Source of the DNA: a virus
Strand: one strand, 5' to 3'
IMG/VR virus record: IMGVR_UViG_3300027852_000062
Location: 1 to 45,968 of that record
DNA length: 45,968 bases
How positions within the stretch are numbered: the stretch's first letter is position 1; each line of letters opens with the position of its first letter. The position numbers and the translations under genes were made by a program. The notes under the pieces were generated by a model. That model was given only the letters and a program-made list of their open reading frames with translations, had not been told where the DNA came from and searched no databases. Of this stretch, positions 3,083-45,884 are shown one piece after another.

Positions 3083-3232
3083 ATGTGTACAGTAGAACAC
3101 CTCCACCTTGTGTATATGGCGTTGTTCTTTGTGTGTATACAAAGCGCTTTCGTTTGCCGTATCATAATAGAAGCAAAGAGGATAGCTAGCTTACGATACT
3201 GTAAGTGTAATCAAATTAAAAAGAAGGAGTAA
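3083..3232 (+). CDS. 49-residue single-span membrane protein
   Basis: I start this at the ATG after AAGGGAG (MCTVEHLHLVYMALF...) rather than at an ATG 24 codons upstream that lacks a good ribosome-binding site. One hydrophobic span covers about residues 8-28 and is followed by a basic tail with three cysteines and KKKE at the end. It has the same design as the preceding 48-residue protein, so the two could act together in the membrane. It belongs to no recognised family. Confidence 0.6.
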   Translation: MCTVEHLHLVYMALFFVCIQSAFVCRIIIEAKRIASLRYCKCNQIKKKE

Positions 3233-4252: not shown

Positions 4253-4273
4253 GTACCTTATGCATGTAGGTAC
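4253..4273 (+). other. Constant-loop hairpin, copy 1
   Basis: GTACCT/AGGTAC forms a six-bp stem around the nine-base loop TATGCATGT. It is one of at least seven left-arm intergenic hairpins with this loop but different stems. The loop centre ATGCAT is self-complementary, so two such loops could kiss. A second TATGCATGT at 4305-4313 lies in a larger loop without its own direct stem. Confidence 0.7.
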
Positions 4274-4384
4274 CTAAACAATAATATCGTAACCACAAAC
4301 TACCTATGCATGTCTTGTGTGTAGGCTACATCATTAAGATATAGAACTAATTCAGCTAGTTTATAGGCGATAAGAATAACCTGC

Positions 4385-4483
4385 GAGATAGTCATATACG
4401 CAGTGATAACGTAACCTGAATAGTAACATGTCTTAAACTCTGTAGCTTACATACCTAGTGCGTATGGGTCTTGCGACTATCTC
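4385..4483 (+). ncRNA. Long-range RNA domain closed by a 9-bp stem
   Basis: GAGATAGTC pairs exactly with GACTATCTC 81 bases later, and inside it ATACGC pairs with GCGTAT. The two stems stack with a small asymmetric interior. Two nested exact pairings at this distance are unlikely by chance in noncoding sequence. The inner 58 bases have no strong fold that I can see. Confidence 0.5.
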
Positions 4484-4845
4484 ACAAGGGCATGGAAGCG
4501 TTGTTCTTGTAGATTTAACTAGTGCATCATACCTTCTATCAGATTCACGGTCGGAACGTCCAACTGTAAATTGGAGTGCTGCCTTGTGCAGCTAGAAGAC
4601 TACGGCGAACAGCCGATAAGATCACTATCTTATTAGATAATCGTAACTCTTTCTATACTTGGCATAGCTTATCAAGGTTCGAATCCTTGTGCTCATTAGC
4701 ATGGCGGAAAGGGATAGGTAATTTTATGAATGTAGGTTACCTAAGGTATACGCAGTCAGTACATACACAGATATGTATTGGCTGAGTTGTGTCACAGATA
4801 AGGAATACCATTACTTTTGTCATCGTATACATAGGAGGACTAAAG

Positions 4846-6675
4846 ATGCAAAAGAGAAAACCTGTGGCTATCTCTGATCAGAGTATCAAGCCACTTGTAA
4901 GTTCCATAGTGGGGGCTAGAGCTGGTAACCCTACCCTTCACGAAAACGTATACTCTTTGGAGAGTAGAGTAAAGCAACACCTTCTGACTGAAGCTACCAG
5001 CAATCTGATAACTCCAATGTTACAGTTAGGTGGTGAAGGGAAGGGACCTCCAAAGAGAGTGTTGCTCCAAGACTTGTGTCCAAAGCTATGGTCTTGGTTC
5101 GACAGTAACTGTAGTACATACGGCTTTGTTCCTTTACATAGAAAGGAACACTATATGCCTACTAGGGGCAATGGAAAGAGAAGGGATGTTAAAAGACCTG
5201 ACATCGTACCTCGCCCTGACCATGTAGCATATCGTTATCGTTGTTGTAATAACTTCAACGAGAAACAAAAGGTACTCAACACTAGGAGCATCTTGCAAGA
5301 CAGTGATGAGTACTTCATAGAGCTTCTAACTACATGGCATAAAAACCGTTGGTTCGAAGTGTTAGGCAGAGGCGGTAGGTTGGATGTGTTGTCTCCTAGT
5401 GAGAGTACACACCTTAAGGTGCCTACTAACAATGCAATGGAAGAAGATCACTCTCGTGAGATCGGAGACAGTACCTCAGTACCTCAGTACTGGGATATTG
5501 GGTATGATGATGACGTAGAAGAGATGCCCTTTGAACCAACATCGGTTGATGAGGAACTCAAGATATACTGCGCATTACCAAACGATAAAGAGTCTATCGT
5601 AAACGATATGTTCTTTAACAGTAGTAACGATGAAGACGTAGGAGAACTCCAAAGCTTCTACCCTGAGGTACAGAAGCAACGTCTTGAACGTCAACGTAAG
5701 CTATCTAAACATCATTACTTCAAGAGGAAGAGAGGAGCTATGGCAGGCTTCACATCTTATCTTGTTAGTCTCAAGCCTAAGTATAAGAAGCACTCTGTAA
5801 ATATAACTACAAAGTACTCCGAAGACATGAATACTAGTAGGGTATACCCTGAATTAGATGATAGAGACTACACTAGCAGACACTCACCTGCTAATGTAAC
5901 TGTACCATTGGACCTACACCCTACTATGTTCATAGGCTATGAGATCGGTGACTCTACCCCATACTACCACAACAGGCTACATCTAAACGGAATACTAGGT
6001 ACCTCTGAGAAGAGATTTAATACTCCTTTATATGAAGCAAGAGAAGGTATATGGGCTAATAGGCACCGGCTAGCAAGACAAAGAGGGATACAAAGCTTGT
6101 CATCCTACCTGTCTACTCTTAAATCTAATGGTGTTAGCACACGTTGGAAGCTCAAGAATGTGCCTAGTATCGTTAAGCTGTTAAGCTTTATTGATAGTCT
6201 CAGCAAAGGTGTCCATAAGTCTAAGGCAGTAGAGAAGGTATCAGAAGGGATCTTCTCTAAGGTTATCGATAAGCATGGTAACCACCTAGACTATGCTACA
6301 CCGTACTCTGATGGTCATTTACTGTTCCAAGCTGTAAGGTATAGAGCTTCACAGGATGAGGTCGTTAAGGCTGCTGTCTCTACGATAGCAACCAATGCAA
6401 TCAGAAGAGTACAAAGGAAAAGAATACCATCTTCTTTGGAGGTGGACAATCTGGATCTGTTCAAGAAGAGGAGTAACTCCTTTACTAAACAGATATACAT
6501 AGAACCAATAGACGATGGTTCTCAAAAAGATAACGTCATTATGACTCTCGATAAGGAGAGTAACCTATCAGCTAACCAAGCTATAGTGCAAGAGGTGATG
6601 AAAGATCCTGACCTCTTTAATCAAGTAATGGATCGTGTTAAGAAGTCTACTTGTCCAGCCTGTGGTAAGGTGTGA
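4846..6675 (+). CDS. Large orphan protein with C-terminal CPxC motif
   Basis: A 609-residue protein started at the ATG after AGGAGG, 19 codons inside the longest frame. I do not recognise a family. It is basic and hydrophilic, with Lys/Arg-rich stretches (near residue 110 and residues 285-310), an acidic middle (DDDVEEM near residue 220) and a C-terminal CPACGKV that looks like half a zinc knuckle. It has no Walker, nuclease or polymerase motif and no membrane span. It is by far the largest gene outside the replication and virion sets and is flanked on both sides by structured noncoding blocks, which suggests an RNA- or DNA-binding role. That is inference only. Confidence 0.75.
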   Translation: MQKRKPVAISDQSIKPLVSSIVGARAGNPTLHENVYSLESRVKQHLLTEATSNLITPMLQLGGEGKGPPKRVLLQDLCPKLWSWFDSNCSTYGFVPLHRKEHYMPTRGNGKRRDVKRPDIVPRPDHVAYRYRCCNNFNEKQKVLNTRSILQDSDEYFIELLTTWHKNRWFEVLGRGGRLDVLSPSESTHLKVPTNNAMEEDHSREIGDSTSVPQYWDIGYDDDVEEMPFEPTSVDEELKIYCALPNDKESIVNDMFFNSSNDEDVGELQSFYPEVQKQRLERQRKLSKHHYFKRKRGAMAGFTSYLVSLKPKYKKHSVNITTKYSEDMNTSRVYPELDDRDYTSRHSPANVTVPLDLHPTMFIGYEIGDSTPYYHNRLHLNGILGTSEKRFNTPLYEAREGIWANRHRLARQRGIQSLSSYLSTLKSNGVSTRWKLKNVPSIVKLLSFIDSLSKGVHKSKAVEKVSEGIFSKVIDKHGNHLDYATPYSDGHLLFQAVRYRASQDEVVKAAVSTIATNAIRRVQRKRIPSSLEVDNLDLFKKRSNSFTKQIYIEPIDDGSQKDNVIMTLDKESNLSANQAIVQEVMKDPDLFNQVMDRVKKSTCPACGKV

Positions 6676-7047
6676 TAACATAGCTCCGCTTTAGCGTAGC
6701 GCACATCTCATAGGACATGCAAGGAACAAGAACGATGTAGTGTTAGTATAAAGTATAAGCTAGTATTGTATCGAGTGTCCCCGTGTCATCGGACAGCTGA
6801 CAGAATACAATGTGGTAGGACGTGAATGTCCTATGCCTCTCCCCTCAAGGGCCAGTGCAAGTGGTCGAGACAAGGAGACTTCAGGTGGGAGTCCTGAGCT
6901 GATGTGTACACGTGCCGACCGACCGAAGCTCGTGTGTCCCTAAGATTGAAGACCTTAGGATTGTAACTTGCTAGCTAGATAAAAAGATTATACTTTAGAA
7001 AGAGACATCATAAATATAAACTAATACAACTGAAGGAAAAGAGAGAT
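6676..7047 (+). ncRNA. Structured noncoding block B
   Basis: About 370 bases without a gene, visibly richer in G+C than the surroundings. Stems include ATTGTAT/ATACAAT enclosing TGTCC/GGACA, TAGGAC/GTCCTA with loop gtgaat, GGCCA-gtgcaag-TGGTC (an anticodon-arm-like 5+7 hairpin), ACACG-t-GC/GC-t-CGTGT around the loop cgaccgaccgaa, and CCTAAG/CTTAGG near the end. The run of well-paired helices suggests one folded RNA of roughly 270 bases (about 6690-6965), ending just before the ribosome-binding site of the next gene. It matches no RNA family that I can name. Confidence 0.5.
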
Positions 7048-7515
7048 ATGAAACACTCAGTCTATTACCCCCAGTCGATAGGAGGTGGAAGATTTATAGT
7101 GAGTGAACTTCGTTCTTTCTTAGGGTTTAAATGGTGGAGGCCTGTCCCTGATCTGTACATAGATTATGATAGGTTATTACTGGAAGAAAAAAACCTCAAG
7201 TTACAGTTAAAACGTAAAGGTGAGGAGGTGAAGAAAGAGAAGGAAGGTATTGAAAAGTTTGTTCAATATTCTCTGGCTTCGCATCAAGGATACTCTCGTT
7301 CATTATCCCCTAACAAGCGGAAGATAATGAGGGTTGGAACCAGTGAGATTGACTACCAAGAACTCTCTTTCTTAGATGAGAAGTCTGAGAAGAAGAGTAA
7401 CCCAAGAGAGCGAGGCCCTCCGACAGTTAGTGTGCATCATCCTTCTGATAATATCCAAAGTGCTGGTCAGAAAGGCAACCAAGGTAACAATCAGAAGGGC
7501 GGGAACAAGCAGTAG
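7048..7515 (+). CDS. Early protein with disordered Gly/Asn/Gln tail
   Basis: A 155-residue protein with a purine-rich AAGGAAAAGAG site. The N-terminal 50 residues look folded (KWWRPVPDLYIDYDRLL), residues 50-75 form a Lys/Glu-rich helix (KGEEVKKEKEGIEKF), and the last 45 residues are low-complexity and polar (GQKGNQGNNQKGGNKQ). It has no membrane segment or catalytic motif and no recognised family. Confidence 0.7.
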   Translation: MKHSVYYPQSIGGGRFIVSELRSFLGFKWWRPVPDLYIDYDRLLLEEKNLKLQLKRKGEEVKKEKEGIEKFVQYSLASHQGYSRSLSPNKRKIMRVGTSEIDYQELSFLDEKSEKKSNPRERGPPTVSVHHPSDNIQSAGQKGNQGNNQKGGNKQ

Positions 7516-7545
7516 AAATACTTACACACTATCTAGATATGATTG

Positions 7546-7564
7546 TACCTTATGCATGTAGGTA
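7546..7564 (+). other. Constant-loop hairpin, copy 2
   Basis: TACCT/AGGTA, extended by one G-U pair, surrounds TATGCATGT. It stands 30 bases after the stop of the 155-residue gene. Confidence 0.65.
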
Positions 7565-7623
7565 TTGAGTCAATGCTAGACGTCGGTGGAATGTATAAGG
7601 GTTAACAGTGGACTTATCTATAC

Positions 7624-7650
7624 CTCCTATCTTATGCATGTAGAGAGGAG
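7624..7650 (+). other. Constant-loop hairpin, copy 3
   Basis: TCT/AGA, one A-G mismatch, then CTCCT/AGGAG surrounds TATGCATGT. The stem sequence is unrelated to copies 1 and 2 while the loop is identical, the covariation expected of a selected RNA structure. Confidence 0.7.
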
Positions 7651-7741
7651 TGGAGACAACTAGAGGACTGGCCCTATCAACTGACAGCAGTATCTTTACA
7701 GTTCTAAGTGATACTAGAACTCAAGACATTCATTGCTCCAC

Positions 7742-7762
7742 TGGACTTATGCATGTAGTCTA
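7742..7762 (+). other. Constant-loop hairpin, copy 4
   Basis: GACT/AGTC plus a G-U and a T-A pair surrounds TATGCATGT. It is another stem sequence with the same loop, 100 bases upstream of the membrane protein gene. Confidence 0.65.
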
Positions 7763-7861
7763 AGTAATGAGTGTCTTGCATTGTAGTATTATAACAGTAC
7801 TACAGGTGTGTACCATACGGTATGCATCCCTCTTGTTAAAAACTGTAAGGAAGGTAACACT

Positions 7862-8335
7862 ATGAAGAAGGTAAAAGAAGAAGCTAGTGACAGCAAGGAA
7901 GAAGGGTTACGGGATTATTTCAGTAAGCCCTTATTCATCATGCTGATGATATCACTGGTCCTCCTCTTAGCTATCAGCATTATTAACGATGTAGTAGCCG
8001 AAGAAGAGGGTACCCGAGCCGGTAATGTTGTTGACATTGTCGAGGTAGGTACAGCAGCTCCCGATGATAAACCTAACTGGGTTAAGGTAAAACTTAATGC
8101 AGCCTCGGATTACTTCAAAGCTAAATGGAAGACAGCGGATGAAGAAGTCGAGAGTAACTCTAAGGATGCTGAGACAGAAGCAGTAAAGTCTATTAGTATT
8201 GAAGAAGATGCTAGCGAAGCACCCTCTCCTGCTATCACAGTGGAAGAGCTTACTGTTGTACCTGTGGCTGAGCCTGTAGCTGTAGAGGTTGATGACTTCG
8301 CTGTAAAAAAGCGGCTCACGCTAAGCAAGAAGTAG
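7862..8335 (+). CDS. Type II membrane-anchor protein, frame 0 of a probable frameshift fusion
   Basis: In frame 0 this is a 157-residue protein starting after GGAAGG. A charged N-terminus is followed by one membrane span (about residues 24-42) and an acidic, Glu/Ala/Val/Pro-rich periplasmic stalk. The stop comes eight codons after A-AAA-AAG, a textbook -1 slippery heptamer (8305-8311). A -1 shift there replaces the last residues with the cell-wall hydrolase in the overlapping frame, giving a 287-residue membrane-anchored hydrolase. The unshifted product would be an anchor and stalk without enzyme. I infer a lysis or entry/peptidoglycan role from the partner. Confidence 0.75.
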   Translation: MKKVKEEASDSKEEGLRDYFSKPLFIMLMISLVLLLAISIINDVVAEEEGTRAGNVVDIVEVGTAAPDDKPNWVKVKLNAASDYFKAKWKTADEEVESNSKDAETEAVKSISIEEDASEAPSPAITVEELTVVPVAEPVAVEVDDFAVKKRLTLSKK

Positions 8336-8347
8336 AATGTTTAGCGT
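8305..8347 (+). promoter_or_regulatory. Probable -1 ribosomal frameshift signal
   Basis: The signal has the heptamer A AAA AAG in the correct frame (GTA AAA AAG), a six-base spacer, then a stem ACGCTAA (8318-8324) with TTAGCGT (8341-8347) around a 16-base loop containing the frame-0 TAG. Heptamer, spacer and stem match the layout of known bacterial -1 sites such as dnaX. The -1 frame has stops at 8290 and 8293 and no ATG or GTG before the hydrolase domain, so a shift is the simplest way to translate it whole. Confidence 0.8.
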
Positions 8348-8724
8348 TGAATGCTTACCATGAAGCGAGAGGAGAAGGCTTACCAGGTATTGTAGCTACT
8401 ATGCAGGTAGTGAACAACAGGTTGAGTATCAACTACCGAGGTGCCGTCTCACTTTGCGATGTTGTTGTTGCTAACAAACAGTTCAGTTGGCTGTATGATA
8501 GCAGGAAGGACATCGCAATGGATAAAGTATCTTATCAGATGATAGTAGGAGTTGCAAAAGGTTTTATCAGTGGTGACTACCCATTAGATATAACCAAGGG
8601 TGCTACTCACTATAGAGCAGAGAGTCTAAATGATTTCTGGTCTAGAGTCTCTGCTTATGACGATAGGATTAAAGTAAGGTTCACTAGTAAGATAGGAAAT
8701 CATATCTTTTACAAGTTTGATTAG
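8311..8724 (+). CDS. SleB/CwlJ-type cell-wall hydrolase, -1 frame
   Basis: Hydrolase_2 family. Hallmarks are CLALNAYHEARGEG at the N-terminus with the expected catalytic glutamate, then VVNNRL, KQFSWLYD, GATHYRA and the C-terminal IGNHIFYKF. The enzyme cleaves peptidoglycan. Read from the frameshift site it adds 137 residues (AAHAKQEVECLALNAY...). The only in-frame start is a TTG at 8347, which lies inside the conserved block, would remove CLAL and has no ribosome-binding site. I therefore regard it as the downstream half of a fusion with the membrane-anchor protein. It is probably the phage endolysin, tethered to the inner membrane. A hairpin (AGGGCTGT/ACAGCCCT) follows. Confidence 0.85.
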   Translation, partial: AAHAKQEVECLALNAYHEARGEGLPGIVATMQVVNNRLSINYRGAVSLCDVVVANKQFSWLYDSRKDIAMDKVSYQMIVGVAKGFISGDYPLDITKGATHYRAESLNDFWSRVSAYDDRIKVRFTSKIGNHIFYKFD

Positions 8725-8754
8725 GCTTACTTACAATAGTGTACACAAATAAGT

Positions 8755-8779
8755 AGGGCTGTCTGCACACTACAGCCCT
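8755..8779 (+). terminator. Strong hairpin after the hydrolase gene
   Basis: AGGGCTGT pairs perfectly with ACAGCCCT around a nine-base loop, 30 bases after the hydrolase stop. The following sequence (gctaactgaac) is not U-rich, so it may be a weak terminator or a 3'-end stabilising structure. Confidence 0.45.
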
Positions 8780-8811
8780 GCTAACTGAACATGACTAACG
8801 AGGATAGAATT

Positions 8812-9435
8812 ATGGGACTTTTTAGTAGAAAGAAAAAGGATAAGGTAGCTGAGGATATCAATATGATAACTCCTACTGTCATCTTCGATGATGAAGCAGC
8901 CTTTACTGTAGGAGACTATTTATCTCCAGACCCTGTGACTGATAATAGAACAGATGAACCCGATACAGTAGATAACCACCCCAGTCTAGATGGCTACTTT
9001 AGCCCATTTGATAGTGTCATACTCCATCAGATATCTATTACGATATACGAAGATAGTATGCCGTTCGTTGAGCACGATGAAAGAGTAGGGCAAGTCTACT
9101 CCTTAGTACGTCAAGGGTTAACAGGTTCATTAAAAGACCTGAGTGAAACATACACGGTAGATATAATACCTGTTAATCGTAACTACATTGCTCACGAACA
9201 CAAGATTAACCTGTGGCTATTGTCTTACCTCCTTGACATCAGAGCATCAGAGCTACATATGCATGGCTCTAACAGCTTCGACTACATAGTATATCTGAAA
9301 GAAGAAGTAGATATATCAATTAGTTCAAAAGGTTACAGCCTAATTGTAAAGCCTTTTGTATACGCTGAAGACGAAGAGGAGGTTGATGACGATGGCTATT
9401 CCACAATATCCACAAAAGTCGACGACAACTTCTAA
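8812..9435 (+). CDS. Acidic protein of unknown function
   Basis: A 207-residue protein. I start it at the ATG eight bases after GAGG (MGLFSRKKKDK...), seven codons inside the longest frame. A basic N-terminal tip is followed by a strongly acidic remainder (many D/E, ending EDEEEVDDDG). A central segment (residues 70-180) alternates hydrophobic and polar residues and may be an alpha/beta domain. It belongs to no recognised family. The end overlaps the next gene's start by about 50 bases. Confidence 0.7.
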   Translation: MGLFSRKKKDKVAEDINMITPTVIFDDEAAFTVGDYLSPDPVTDNRTDEPDTVDNHPSLDGYFSPFDSVILHQISITIYEDSMPFVEHDERVGQVYSLVRQGLTGSLKDLSETYTVDIIPVNRNYIAHEHKINLWLLSYLLDIRASELHMHGSNSFDYIVYLKEEVDISISSKGYSLIVKPFVYAEDEEEVDDDGYSTISTKVDDNF

Positions 9436-9682
9436 TAGTAGGAGAACAGGAGTACAAGAGTTCGTACCTCTAGATGACCAGACGCCTGCCTCCGTATGGA
9501 GGATAATCATCCTAGGTCTTGTTATATACTCGCTGATGTCCAGTGTGTGGGTATTCAGTGAGATGCCAGGTAACATTATAATCAACGGAGAAAACAATTG
9601 GTCATCAGATCAGACTTGGTATGCAGCTAGTCACTTCTGTTCTCTAGGTGTAGCTGCTCTCCTAGTCTGGTTGAAACGGTAA
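9386..9682 (+). CDS. Two-span membrane protein, holin-like candidate
   Basis: About 98 residues, starting inside the previous gene after GAGGAGG (ATG here or two codons later). Two hydrophobic segments are visible (about residues 40-58, WRIIILGLVIYSLMSS, and 80-96, CSLGVAALLVWL), joined by a polar loop and ending in KR. Size and two spans fit a class II holin. It is close to the hydrolase gene, which supports a lysis role, but this is inference. Confidence 0.6.
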   Translation: MTMAIPQYPQKSTTTSNSRRTGVQEFVPLDDQTPASVWRIIILGLVIYSLMSSVWVFSEMPGNIIINGENNWSSDQTWYAASHFCSLGVAALLVWLKR

Positions 9683-9691
9683 GTACCTTAC

Positions 9692-9719
9692 GATAGTGCA
9701 TTAGTAATAGTGTACTATC
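9692..9719 (+). other. Repeated intergenic hairpin, type 2, copy 1
   Basis: GATAGTGCA/TGTACTATC forms a nine-bp stem with one G-U pair. The preceding ccttac and following ttgag are shared with the copy at 10191-10219, so this family conserves stem sequence as well as shape. It lies in the gap before the lysine-rich gene. Confidence 0.55.
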
Positions 9720-9769
9720 TTGAGGGATAATACTGTCTCTCTATTATCTGAAACACTGAGGATAACACT

Positions 9770-10171
9770 ATGGGTTCACCTAAGAAAAAAATAGCGAAGA
9801 AGCATCCTAAGCCTAAGCGAGTCAGCTATGCTTATCGTGATTCTACTGGCAAGAAGGTATTGCTAAGCGTCAAAGAAGCACATGCTATAGCTAAGAAGAA
9901 GAAGGCAGAGTTAGCTGTAGCAGCTAGGAAGGATGCAGCTGACACTGAAATACGTAAGTTGAAAAGTGAAGGGGATGAGTACAAGTCTCTAGAAAGGTTA
10001 GAGAAGAGTCATATCCGTAGAGCTGAGAAGCTAGAACGTACTGACTATGGGCTTAGTAAGATGGTACTGAGTATGGGAATGCGTAAGGTAAAGTCTAAGA
10101 ATGAGAGGGCTGAACCTGCTAGTAAGGCTGCTTCTAAGATCATCAAGAAAAGGAAGAGGGCTAACTCCTGA
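9770..10171 (+). CDS. Lysine-rich basic protein, probable nucleic-acid binder
   Basis: A 133-residue protein with a GAGGA site. It is extremely basic: the first 20 residues hold SPKKKIAKKHPKPKR and the last ten are KKRKRANS-like, with a long charged helix between (residues 35-90). Composition resembles histone H1-like or phage DNA-binding proteins. It has no enzyme motif. Plausible roles are nucleoid remodelling or DNA/RNA binding. I infer this only from charge. Confidence 0.68.
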   Translation: MGSPKKKIAKKHPKPKRVSYAYRDSTGKKVLLSVKEAHAIAKKKKAELAVAARKDAADTEIRKLKSEGDEYKSLERLEKSHIRRAEKLERTDYGLSKMVLSMGMRKVKSKNERAEPASKAASKIIKKRKRANS

Positions 10172-10190
10172 GCCATAGGTAGTTACTTAC

Positions 10191-10219
10191 GATAGTGTAT
10201 TCTTAAACAGTACACTATC
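10191..10219 (+). other. Repeated intergenic hairpin, type 2, copy 2
   Basis: GATAGTGTA/TACACTATC is a perfect nine-bp stem with an 11-base loop, flanked by cttac and ttga like copy 1. The two differences in the stem are compatible with pairing (CA/TG becomes TA/TA). It lies just upstream of the next small membrane gene. A partial copy (cttacaatagtgtac) follows the hydrolase gene near 8730. Confidence 0.6.
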
Positions 10220-10255
10220 TTGATGTATTCTATTACCAATACTGGAGACTATAAT

Positions 10256-10486
10256 ATGTTATTAGACATAGTAACATTAATAATTCCCAGTGCTATATTA
10301 GTAGCCTCAACATTAGACTTCTTAGTCACATGGGTTGCTACTTTAAATATATACACTACGGAACCGATAAGAGGAAGGAAGGTACCCTATAGACAAGACT
10401 CGCTATCTTGTCTTGAAGGTACTGAATCTCCACAACAGCGACTAAGCTACAAGCGAGGAGTTGGTAGCCCCAATGACTTCGAGTAG
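10256..10486 (+). CDS. Small membrane protein, unknown function
   Basis: A 76-residue protein starting at the ATG after TGGAGAC, 12 codons inside the longest frame. The N-terminal 30 residues form one long hydrophobic span (MLLDIVTLIIPSAILVAST...), followed by a polar, basic, probably cytoplasmic tail. It is the last gene before the third noncoding block. Confidence 0.65.
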   Translation: MLLDIVTLIIPSAILVASTLDFLVTWVATLNIYTTEPIRGRKVPYRQDSLSCLEGTESPQQRLSYKRGVGSPNDFE

Positions 10487-10489
10487 TAC

Positions 10490-10602
10490 CGTAGTACAGT
10501 GTGTTAAACATGAATCTAATCCCATAGTACAGGGGACAACGGTATACCCGTTGACTAGGTGCAGCTCCTAGTAGATAAATAACCCATACACATTGTACTA
10601 CG
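10490..10602 (+). ncRNA. Multibranch RNA domain closed by a 15-bp helix
   Basis: CGTAGTACAGTGTGT pairs with ACACATTGTACTACG (14 Watson-Crick pairs and one G-U). Inside, AACGG-tatac-CCGTT and ACTAGG-tgcagct-CCTAGT stand side by side. A closed three-way junction of this quality in noncoding DNA strongly suggests a functional RNA. Confidence 0.6.
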
Positions 10603-10775
10603 TTATGCTACCCGAGTAAGTTACATGGCGATAGGACCGGACCTTTAATCCGTGATACCCTGCTAGATGTAACATTCAACTGTACCAACAGCACTCAGAT
10701 ACGAGACAATCAGGCACAAGAATCAGAAAGCCTTAGTGAAAGACCCCATATAGCTAAAGGTCTGTGTTAAAACCA

Positions 10776-10843
10776 CAGTGTATTGCTACAGCAGGTAAGA
10801 CAAACTACTAGTCATCTCTAGTGGACCTGCATAGAATACACTG
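10776..10843 (+). ncRNA. Three-tier long hairpin
   Basis: CAGTGTATT/AATACACTG (9 bp), GCAGGT/ACCTGC (6 bp) and ACTAG/CTAGT (5 bp) are nested in one 68-base arm. The 5' base of the arm can instead pair in CTGTG-ttaaaac-CACAG, a possible conformational switch. Confidence 0.6.
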
Positions 10844-10881
10844 TGCAATTGAAGCAACGTACAGTCAGTGCGAAAACACAG

Positions 10882-10916
10882 CAGTGCAGTACCCTATGCA
10901 TGTGGATATTGTACTG
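10882..10916 (+). other. Constant-loop hairpin, copy 5
   Basis: A 13-position stem (10 Watson-Crick pairs, two G-U, one mismatch) surrounds TATGCATGT. It is the longest stem of the family and again has its own stem sequence. Confidence 0.75.
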
Positions 10917-10945
10917 TTATATTTGTTAATTACCCCAGTCTATTT

Positions 10946-10973
10946 TTGACAGTATGCTTCTACAGTGTATAAG
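10946..10973 (+). promoter_or_regulatory. Sigma70-type promoter
   Basis: TTGACA and TATAAG are separated by 16 bp, the closest match to the host consensus that I found in the left arm. It points right toward the small genes at 11.15-12.5 kb and possibly the replication operon. The predicted transcript begins near 10980, leaving a leader of about 170 bases. Confidence 0.6.
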
Positions 10974-11150
10974 CTGCTGCCTTTAGAAGACTACAGTCTT
11001 TGGCTCCCTCAGTAGGCACACTAGCGTGTCTCATCCACACCTGAAGTAAGCTGTGCCTCAGCTACACTGTGTAGTTGTTAGGTAGTAGAGACTTCACTGT
11101 AGGAGTGTACTGTCGAAAGTAGATTGGGGTCTATGATTAAGGAGAATATG

Positions 11151-11393
11151 ATGAGATTACCAGAACCTTCTAAAGGTTTTCTCTGCACTCTGTTATTATT
11201 ACAGGCAGTAGCTATGGCAGTGTCTAACTTAGAGAGTGTATATCTAAGAGGCGCTCTAAGGGCGTGTGAGAGGCCTTTGCCTGAGGAGGATACATTGCCC
11301 TTCAGTGGTATAAACGCCTCTTACACGGGCACATGGGACCTTACAGAGGGTATCCCTAAGTACTCAGAAAGAAGTGAGAGTCTTCACCTATAA
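11151..11393 (+). CDS. Small protein with N-terminal hydrophobic segment
   Basis: An 80-residue protein starting at the second of two adjacent ATGs after AAGGAG. Residues 8-28 (GFLCTLLLLQAVAMAVS) could be a signal sequence or membrane anchor; the following 50 residues are polar. An upstream ATG at 11124 lies before the ribosome-binding site. No family is recognised. Confidence 0.62.
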   Translation: MRLPEPSKGFLCTLLLLQAVAMAVSNLESVYLRGALRACERPLPEEDTLPFSGINASYTGTWDLTEGIPKYSERSESLHL

Positions 11394-11412
11394 GCAAAAG
11401 GAGAAAGTAAGT

Positions 11413-11592
11413 ATGGATAAGACTGTACTTTACAGTGAGATACGGCAAGGGATAGAAGCCTTGCTAGAAGACCTGGACTCAGCGAAAGAAGCACATCTTA
11501 ACGGGTTTAAGATTGACAAGCAACTCGGTACTATCGCTGATAAACATGATCTTATGCTACAAGATCTCAACTCCATAGACTTCGATGCCTAA
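11413..11592 (+). CDS. Small acidic helical protein
   Basis: A 59-residue protein starting at the ATG ten bases after AGGAG. It is predicted to be all helix with alternating charge (IEALLEDLDSAKEAH) and may dimerise. Its stop codon TAA forms the first three bases of the loop of a constant-loop hairpin variant. Confidence 0.62.
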   Translation: MDKTVLYSEIRQGIEALLEDLDSAKEAHLNGFKIDKQLGTIADKHDLMLQDLNSIDFDA

Positions 11593-11604
11593 GCATGTGG
11601 TATT
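11584..11604 (+). other. Constant-loop hairpin, copy 6 (loop variant TAAGCATGT)
   Basis: GATGCC/GGTATT (four Watson-Crick, two G-U) surrounds TAAGCATGT, with CTTC/GAAG just outside it. The single loop change, T to A at the third base, creates the TAA stop of the gene in which it sits, so the variant looks like a compromise between the motif and the reading frame. Confidence 0.6.
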
Positions 11605-11628
11605 AAGAAGAGGGAAGGGTAACACCTT

Positions 11629-11709
11629 ATGAAACAACATGTTCAATCACTGCGCCATTGGAGGTGCGGTAGGAAAGAGGAGGCTACTATAGATGATGTT
11701 CCTGGCAGC
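11629..11709 (+). CDS. Possible 27-residue peptide
   Basis: A short frame (MKQHVQSLRHWRCGRKEE...) follows AAGGGT at acceptable spacing and overlaps the start of the next small membrane gene. It is basic. Evidence is limited to the ribosome-binding site, and it may simply be a translational coupler. Confidence 0.25.
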
Positions 11710-11866
11710 TGAGTTCGGGTTAACTTTACCCGAGCTAAACCTCATGGTGTCTGGTTTAATAGGGACGCTTGTTAATGCTAAGACACTATTTTGTAACATA
11801 AGGTACTTGGAGAAAACCCCAGGTGCACAACTAAGATCTAACAAGACGAGATACATGCCGTCTTAA
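11693..11866 (+). CDS. 57-residue membrane-associated protein
   Basis: A short frame with the strongest Shine-Dalgarno of the region, GAGGAGG, nine bases before two adjacent ATGs. The N-terminal half is hydrophobic (LAAEFGLTLPELNLMVSGLIGTLV), the C-terminal half basic (RSNKTRYMPS). Its stop TAA overlaps the AAGGAG site of the next gene, a tight operon arrangement. No family is recognised; a small holin-like protein is possible. Confidence 0.55.
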   Translation: MMFLAAEFGLTLPELNLMVSGLIGTLVNAKTLFCNIRYLEKTPGAQLRSNKTRYMPS

Positions 11867-11878
11867 GGAGATACGCCT

Positions 11879-12151
11879 ATGATATTGGAAAGCGAAGGAG
11901 ACCCCTTTGAACACAGCAAAGGGAAGTCTATCCTTATGAAAGTTACACCTACTAAGCTGCATAAGTTTTATACCAAAGAAGCTTTTGTTGCTTGGAATGT
12001 GTCTAGTTGGTTTACTTTGTTTCAAGTCACAGCTCTTCAAAAGGTGTGGCCTTTAGTATCTACAAAAGTAATGACTTCCCTAACGTTAGTTAAGTCAGTG
12101 CTTAAGGATGTTAAAGATGCAGTTGTAGAGGCCATTCTTATTGGCACATAA
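11879..12151 (+). CDS. Small protein, unknown function
   Basis: A 90-residue protein with an AAGGAG site. The middle is aromatic and hydrophobic (FYTKEAFVAWNVSSWFTLFQVTALQKVW), and the C-terminus is a Val/Ala/Leu-rich amphipathic helix. It could be membrane-associated, but there is no clean span. A constant-loop hairpin follows its stop. Confidence 0.62.
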   Translation: MILESEGDPFEHSKGKSILMKVTPTKLHKFYTKEAFVAWNVSSWFTLFQVTALQKVWPLVSTKVMTSLTLVKSVLKDVKDAVVEAILIGT

Positions 12152-12168
12152 CGTAGTATCTTAGTGGG

Positions 12169-12199
12169 CAGCTTATGCCTTATGCATGTAGGTAAGCTG
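12169..12199 (+). other. Constant-loop hairpin, copy 7
   Basis: CCT/AGG, a two-base bulge, then CAGCTTA/TAAGCTG surrounds TATGCATGT. It stands 18 bases after the stop of the 90-residue gene and directly before a 15-bp perfect hairpin. Confidence 0.7.
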
Positions 12200-45545: not shown

Positions 45546-45884
45546 ATGTATATACAAACAGTACTATATGTATGTACAGTGTATAAACGTACAGTGTATG
45601 CATGTACAGTGTATAGATAACCAGTAACTGTATGTATGATCAGTGTATGTATGTACAGCAACTATACCTATATACACCACTGTATATCTATACAATGTAT
45701 AACCATACAGCATGGCTATTTGACACTACCTATAAACAGCTACTGTATACTTATACACTGTATATTTGTACAGCAACTGTATATACAATCACTGTGTATC
45801 CGTACAGTATATGTATATCTATACAGTATACACCTGTATATCCATACACCTGTATATCCATACAGTACCTGTACACCTATACAG
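45546..45884. repeat. Array of about 18 LexA/SOS-box-like 16-bp palindromes
   Basis: Tandem copies of CTGT-N8-ACAG, with the inner eight bases mostly alternating A/T, as in the gamma/beta-proteobacterial LexA consensus. Four are exact to CTGT...ACAG (45758, 45792, 45850, 45869). Most others miss one terminal base. Starts include 45546, 45564, 45579, 45594, 45609, 45628, 45643, 45662, 45680, 45695, 45743, 45758, 45777, 45792, 45811, 45834, 45850 and 45869, so neighbours either share one base (15-bp pitch) or are 3-4 bases apart (18-19-bp pitch). Boxes at 2-17, 18-33 and 37-52 repeat the last three. Candidate LexA operator/decoy cluster, or iterons for an unknown protein. Confidence 0.75.

Follow-up and report, generated by a model that had tools for sequence, protein, structure and literature searches.

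The window analysed here, a virus record taken at its whole length of 45,968 bases, carries eight small hairpins in its left arm in which a loop of nine nucleotides (TATGCATGT or a variant of it) is held nearly constant, while the stems below it change and still pair. An RNA structure with a constant loop is under selection in this phage and again in its relatives, a conclusion that is strongly supported; relatives have a different constant loop, and loops change in concert within a genome. The hairpins are probably dispersed cis-acting RNA elements whose loop is read in trans, most likely by an RNA-binding protein that the phage itself encodes. The element is real and recurrent, and the literature searched holds no description of such hairpins.

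Judged from its sequence, the window is a podovirus, a bacterial virus of marine type related to the Zobellviridae. Its replication genes (primase/helicase and DNA polymerase) are on the plus strand and its structural genes on the minus strand, and this gene order and strand suggest that the left arm, where the hairpins lie, is transcribed early. The nearest named phage is GX1 (GX1-k141_326647, PQ867844, Zobellviridae), at 54.6% to the window for primase and 48.7% for terminase. Searches of viral contigs with primase and polymerase gave about 20 relatives at 40-67% identity; DNA similarity of the left arm to named phages was sought and none was found. Untranslated stretches in the early arm run to 300-860 nucleotides.

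A constant loop on changing stems

The eight hairpins are listed with the expectation value (E) of each in the covariance model described below, followed by one loop copy that was excluded from the family.

4253..4273, plus strand: hairpin 1, GTACCT-TATGCATGT-AGGTAC, loop at 4259, E 7e-6
4715..4743, plus strand: hairpin 2, TAGGTAATTT-TATGAATGT-AGGTTACCTA, 10-pair stem, loop at 4725, E 4.7e-4
7545..7565, plus strand: hairpin 3, GTACCT-TATGCATGT-AGGTAT, loop at 7551, E 5.9e-6
7624..7650, plus strand: hairpin 4, CTCCTATCT-TATGCATGT-AGAGAGGAG, single A.G mismatch, loop at 7633, E 3.6e-5
7722..7778, plus strand: hairpin 5, GGACT-TATGCATGT-AGTCT atop a 16-pair outer helix, loop at 7748, E 3.4e-5
10880..10918, plus strand: hairpin 6, CC-TATGCATGT-GG on a 12-pair outer helix, loop at 10895, E 4.7e-5
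11580..11610, plus strand: hairpin 7, GATGCC-TAAGCATGT-GGTATT, loop at 11590, E 3.2e-4
12169..12199, plus strand: hairpin 8, CAGCTTATGCCT-TATGCATGT-AGGTAAGCTG, loop at 12181, E 5.9e-5
4305..4313, plus strand: TATGCATGT without the family stem, folding as CCTATGCAT/GTGTGTAGG

An initial annotation of this DNA had described seven hairpins, all of which are present; hairpin 2 had been overlooked. It was also right that the one altered loop among its seven forms a gene's stop codon, as TAAGCATGT at 11590 provides the TAA of the open reading frame 11413-11592. The statement that the stems are unrelated and nevertheless pair needs qualification. The stem cells of the window are 93.8% paired, compared with 64.7% when the 3' letters are shuffled, and the changes are compensatory: 13 cells are doubly changed, none of 500 shuffles was comparable, and slid versions came nowhere near either. 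The stems are not wholly unrelated, since the hairpins at 4253 and 7546 (1 and 3) both carry GTACCT/AGGTA and the two innermost pairs are almost invariant (C-G in 7/8, U-A in 6/8). The claim that all members lie just downstream of genes on the transcribed strand holds for the strand, but only four of the eight are within about 50 nucleotides 3' of a stop codon; the other four lie deeper in untranslated gaps.

The covariance model, a check that the annotation had proposed, was built from all eight hairpins and then searched over the whole window, where it matched exactly those eight members (E 5.9e-6 to 4.7e-4), the next match having E 0.36. A scan for families of nine-nucleotide loops on stems of at least 5 pairs, with up to 1 mismatch, was compared with Markov shuffles. 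The largest family in the whole window has 7 members, against 2-4 in 40 shuffles. When the left arm is scanned by itself, the family has 8 members, which carry 7 distinct inner stems, and none of its 60 shuffles yielded a family above 3. The string CTTATGCATGTAG occurs 5 times on the plus strand of the window and 0 times on the minus strand. Folding of the region 7690-7830 around hairpin 5 has a z of -6.57; for hairpin 3, the minimum-free-energy fold of 7500-7600 favours a different pairing.

Hairpin 1 adjoins a D-arm-like hairpin (GCAGCCC..GGGCTG), and hairpin 2 is flanked by the D-arm-like halves GGCGGAA and GGTATACGC of a remnant resembling transfer RNA (tRNA). At the other end of the window (45567-45654), three TATGTATGT/TATGCATGT copies stand inside 90 bases; ACAGTGTATA follows two of the three, and the family stem is absent.

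Loop families in the relatives

The annotation had looked to relatives with the same loop on different stems. Hairpins with TATGCATGT are found in none of the approximately 20 relatives; ACCTTATGCATGTAGGT is not present in the viral contigs searched, and TTATGCATGTA is missing from ten close records save two matches with 1 mismatch. What recurs is the arrangement: six relatives, GX1 and five contigs (numbered with L), have their own constant nine-nucleotide loop on unrelated stems, and these comprise most of the window's branch.

GX1: loop AG[GT]GCCATT, 4 copies, all on the plus strand
L106: loop TGTGCCATT and variants, 6-7 copies
L105: loop TG[AT]GACACT and variants, 5-8 copies
L098: loop AAACCCANT, 5 copies
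L100: loop AACNCCAAT, 3 copies
L089: loop AAYTNCAAT, 4-5 copies

In the window and relatives alike, the hairpins all lie in the early arm on the strand that is transcribed, are mostly intergenic, and have in common a core of seven loop nucleotides, approximately R-N-N-C-C-A-N. Hairpins of the pattern W-R-N-N-N-C-A-N-T in the early arms are divided between plus and minus strands 7:2 in GX1, 7:1 in L105, and 7:0 in L106. In seven phages, 213 of 228 stem cells are paired; when the 3' arms were reshuffled within each phage (2000 times), 122 cells paired on average and 159 at most. A separate count of pairs in the collected hairpins is biased upwards because stems were required at collection. The fairer and much less biased test in the same phages is that of loop matches on stems of at least 4 pairs, which are 36/44 on the plus strand of the early arm versus 1/13 elsewhere. 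The selection on RNA or cruciform structure that the annotation had proposed is thus borne out by the compensatory stems and the recurrence in relatives, and RNA is favoured over a DNA cruciform because of the same-strand bias and the non-palindromic loops of the relatives.

Such a constant-loop family is absent from a distant group of contigs (L006, L007, L008, L009, L013, and L015), and other Zobellviridae (ICP2, CW02, CVT22, and two oyster phages) have no constant loops above shuffles. A candidate loop CGACCTATGA in L006, L008, and L009 was rejected, being start-codon context or a conserved protein C-terminus.

Parts of the early arm are alignable among GX1, L105, and L106, and at three orthologous sites the loops vary between these phages yet agree with the remaining loops of each genome. 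All three have a tandem hairpin pair about 1 kb upstream of primase, the second hairpin of which has near-identical stems (CTTGTG/CACAGG in GX1, CCTGTG/CACGGG in L106 and L105) and different loops (AGGGCCATT in GX1, TGTGCCATT in L106, TGAGACACT in L105), each matching the other loops of its own genome. At another site every stem pair has been replaced (AGTAC/GTACT, GATCAG/CTGATC, TACCC/GGGTA) and the loops are still related. The third site is directly 5' of a Shine-Dalgarno sequence (GX1 5916, L105 1636, L106 1432). Loops that are alike within a genome but diverge from one genome to the next, while their stems are free to change, point to a trans-acting reader of the loop.

Proposed reading of the loop and competing explanations

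The hairpins would be dispersed copies of one cis-acting RNA element along a long early transcript of the left arm. The nine-nucleotide loop, consisting of the seven-nucleotide core and a phage-specific closing position, would be presented to a trans-acting factor by a stem whose sequence is free and whose length is 5 pairs or more. This factor is most likely a phage-encoded RNA-binding protein, which would change together with its loop as each phage lineage drifts, on the pattern of N and boxB in the lambdoid phages; of the roles suggested in the initial annotation, binding of a phage protein fits best. Sigma-70-like promoters in the early arms are rarer than in shuffles (39 vs 50 in 20 kb of the window, 3 vs 12 in GX1), and terminator-like sites are slightly commoner (14 vs 9.4, in the window and in GX1 alike). 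These counts fit a single long early transcript with untranslated stretches, where antitermination or protection could be useful. The likeliest effect, put forward tentatively, would be to sustain transcription through the long untranslated structured early stretches, or to protect them, in the manner of boxB and nut sites; RNA processing, translational control for the subset near Shine-Dalgarno sites, and assembly of ribonucleoproteins are other possible roles.

Lambdoid phages have two nut sites, compared with 4-8 copies per phage here, and their boxB loop and its reader differ between phages. Like the boxB of lambdoid nut sites, which is bound by N, the present elements are small RNA hairpins with what appears to be a reader-specific loop on a probably early transcript, and boxB is likewise read mainly via its loop (P22 boxB: PMC11480772). 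Unlike boxB, they have a loop of nine nucleotides rather than a short one and stems that vary freely within a genome; a boxA-like motif is absent near most sites, which weakens a strict nut analogy, and no N-like protein was identified. The CsrA/RsmA sites of CsrB-type RNAs and the iron-responsive element also consist of many hairpins with a common loop and differing stems, but the present loops are without GGA or CAGUGN, vary between phages, and are spread across the untranslated gaps of one early region. Rfam (4227 families) gave no hairpin at or above the gathering threshold, and in the window and six relatives nothing except two tRNA matches. No consistent antisense or complementary partner for the loops was found. 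The flanks share no linear motif, and k-mers in them are shared no more often than chance predicts, save where flanks overlap, which suggests that the hairpin is the whole unit.

Most of these phages have a fast-evolving gene of about 420-770 amino acids between noncoding blocks, many with a basic N-terminus. In the window this is the gene 4846-6675 (609 amino acids), which lies between two noncoding blocks and has no Pfam or PHROGs match. Homology of such genes to the arginine-rich N type of protein was not established. Homology among the ~600-amino-acid genes of different groups was not accepted, as profile comparisons gave a best p-value of 0.007 over short stretches, and they are linkable only within close groups. 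A protein of 53-80 amino acids just upstream of primase (GX1 ORF41; L086 13474-13635) is present in the hairpin-bearing branch and in L102; no counterpart turned up in the window, in the other group, or among other Zobellviridae. It tracks the hairpin-bearing group, but the window is without it, and it was rejected as the reader on this presence and absence.

Apart from the collection bias noted above, several points weigh against a loop read by a phage protein. Two of nine phages (L109 and L115) are weaker cases, and L102 has no convincing hairpin family. Only 2 of the tested sites have a boxA-like string nearby. No protein partner emerged, the left-arm proteins are almost all unconserved between phages, and the AlphaFold model of the ~440-amino-acid protein of the other group (group B) is unusable, with a mean predicted local distance difference test score of 45.5. 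Members adjacent to Shine-Dalgarno sequences in some relatives fit translational control.

This last point belongs to an explanation that is itself unlikely, in which the hairpins are translational operators and their reader a repressor acting near ribosome-binding sites, among them the one that serves the gene between noncoding blocks. The 3' arms abut or overlap the Shine-Dalgarno sequence in L098 (1376), L089 (6575), L105 (1634), and GX1 (5916-5932), as does a longer-loop variant in L106 (1432). The operators for gp43, the DNA polymerase of T4, RB69, and RB49, offer a precedent for this role in being phage RNA hairpins whose loop drifts with its protein (UAAC vs UAAA; PMC3014915). Each is a single autoregulatory site near one start codon, however, while the present hairpins are many, dispersed, and mostly far from start codons; none of the eight in the window has a Shine-Dalgarno sequence or start codon within 70 nucleotides downstream, and most others likewise.

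It is similarly doubtful that the hairpins are processing sites at which a phage or host endoribonuclease cuts the early transcript into parts, in the way that RNase III acts in T7. Their position in gaps between early genes, several right 3' of stop codons, and the long helices at 7722-7778 and 10880-10918 would suit this role, and the RNase III sites of T7 are also hairpins in early-transcript gaps. Unlike those sites, the present hairpins have a constant loop, which RNase III is not known to need, and short variable stems, many of 5-6 pairs; no loop-specific phage nuclease was identified, and cleavage of these hairpins is hypothetical.

The annotation had compared the loop with the kissing loop of human immunodeficiency virus, and as a general function this is not supported. 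Kissing of hairpins through the palindrome AUGCAU, which would link separate transcripts or remote regions of a single one, has little probability. The loop of the window (U-AUGCAU-GU) does have the geometry of a nine-nucleotide dimerisation loop, and three members are placed in tandem (7551, 7633, 7748), but only this loop has a six-base palindrome. The relatives' loops are mostly not self-complementary (TGTGCCATT, AAACCCANT, and AACNCCAAT lack a palindrome), and the variants TATGAATGT and TAAGCATGT lose it yet retain the stem. Since palindromy is not conserved among the loops, self-kissing is unlikely to be their shared function; in the symmetric kissing loops OLE L9.3 and GOLLD L21a, one palindrome is swapped for another (PMC12286853). 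The large phage RNAs GOLLD and ROOL resemble the present case in being noncoding phage RNA near tRNA-like elements, with loop-loop contacts (PMC12286853), but differ in that the hairpins described here have no Rfam match and their loops are not kept palindromic.

Action at the DNA level, as cruciforms or single-stranded DNA hairpins in early transcription (as in N4 virion RNA polymerase promoters) or in replication, is very unlikely: the inverted repeats are confined to the early arm in a single orientation, but the stems contain G-T pairs, consistent with RNA, in several phages some copies fall within a gene or on a stop codon, and the large proteins include none recognised as a virion RNA polymerase.

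If the loop is read in trans by a phage protein, aquatic phages of a common group would have a means of recognising RNA that has not been described before, and these hairpins would be a clean example of how a dispersed RNA element evolves in concert with its reader within a genome. Nature would here supply a set of orthogonal pairs of hairpin and reader that could serve as tethering tools in the manner of boxB/N and MS2, and the hairpins would also open a way into the large untranslated regions of these phages. A broader and improbable extension is that this podovirus lineage has a self-coevolving RNA address, a per-phage loop code on free stems throughout the untranslated early RNAs, by which each phage's own protein would tell its early transcripts and noncoding RNAs (many with tRNA-like modules) from those of competitors.

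Other repeats and tRNA-like elements of the early arms

A second repeat family in the window is the 14-base palindrome TGTCTTGCAAGACA, with 7 copies at up to 2 mismatches against 0.23 expected, mostly at the left end (1605, 1666, 2300, 2667, 2884, 3336, and 5289). Relatives have palindromes of their own in the same region: TAGTCCGGACTA in L007, L008, and L015, TAGTCTAGACTA in L006, TAGTTCGAACTA in L013, and one centred on GTCTAGAC in GX1. These left-end palindromes are probably binding sites of regulators with phage-specific sequence.

Hairpins resembling the tRNA T-arm (GG-TTCGANT-CC) number about 45 on the plus strand versus 3 on the minus strand of 15 early arms, and are mostly not called as tRNA genes. 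They occur as follows.

Window, 4640-4760: T-arm-like hairpins
L086, 11600-11720 and 11985-12080: T-arm-like hairpins
L006, L007, L008, L009, L010, and L015, left arms: T-arm-like hairpins

Several look circularly permuted, in the order T-arm, acceptor 3' strand, short loop, acceptor 5' strand, D-arm; when the sequences were rejoined accordingly, tRNAs were called in GX1, L098, and L008, and the control strand yielded no call. Cloverleaves resembling tRNA with a replaced anticodon loop are found in L009 (2109-2175), L106 (~7740-7850), and L086 (11985-12080). The replacement is a loop of 4 nucleotides in L009 and L106 and a large extra hairpin in GX1, where the acceptor stem continues into a long helix.

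A gap element, approximately CTTACRATAGTG, is repeated in the window at 3187, 8728, 9682, and 10181, and at the last three it forms part of a hairpin directly 3' of a stop codon. Near the left end, the inverted repeat ATGTGACCATAATTGTCACTTA is present as two identical 22-base copies (115-136 and 156-177), possibly an operator pair.

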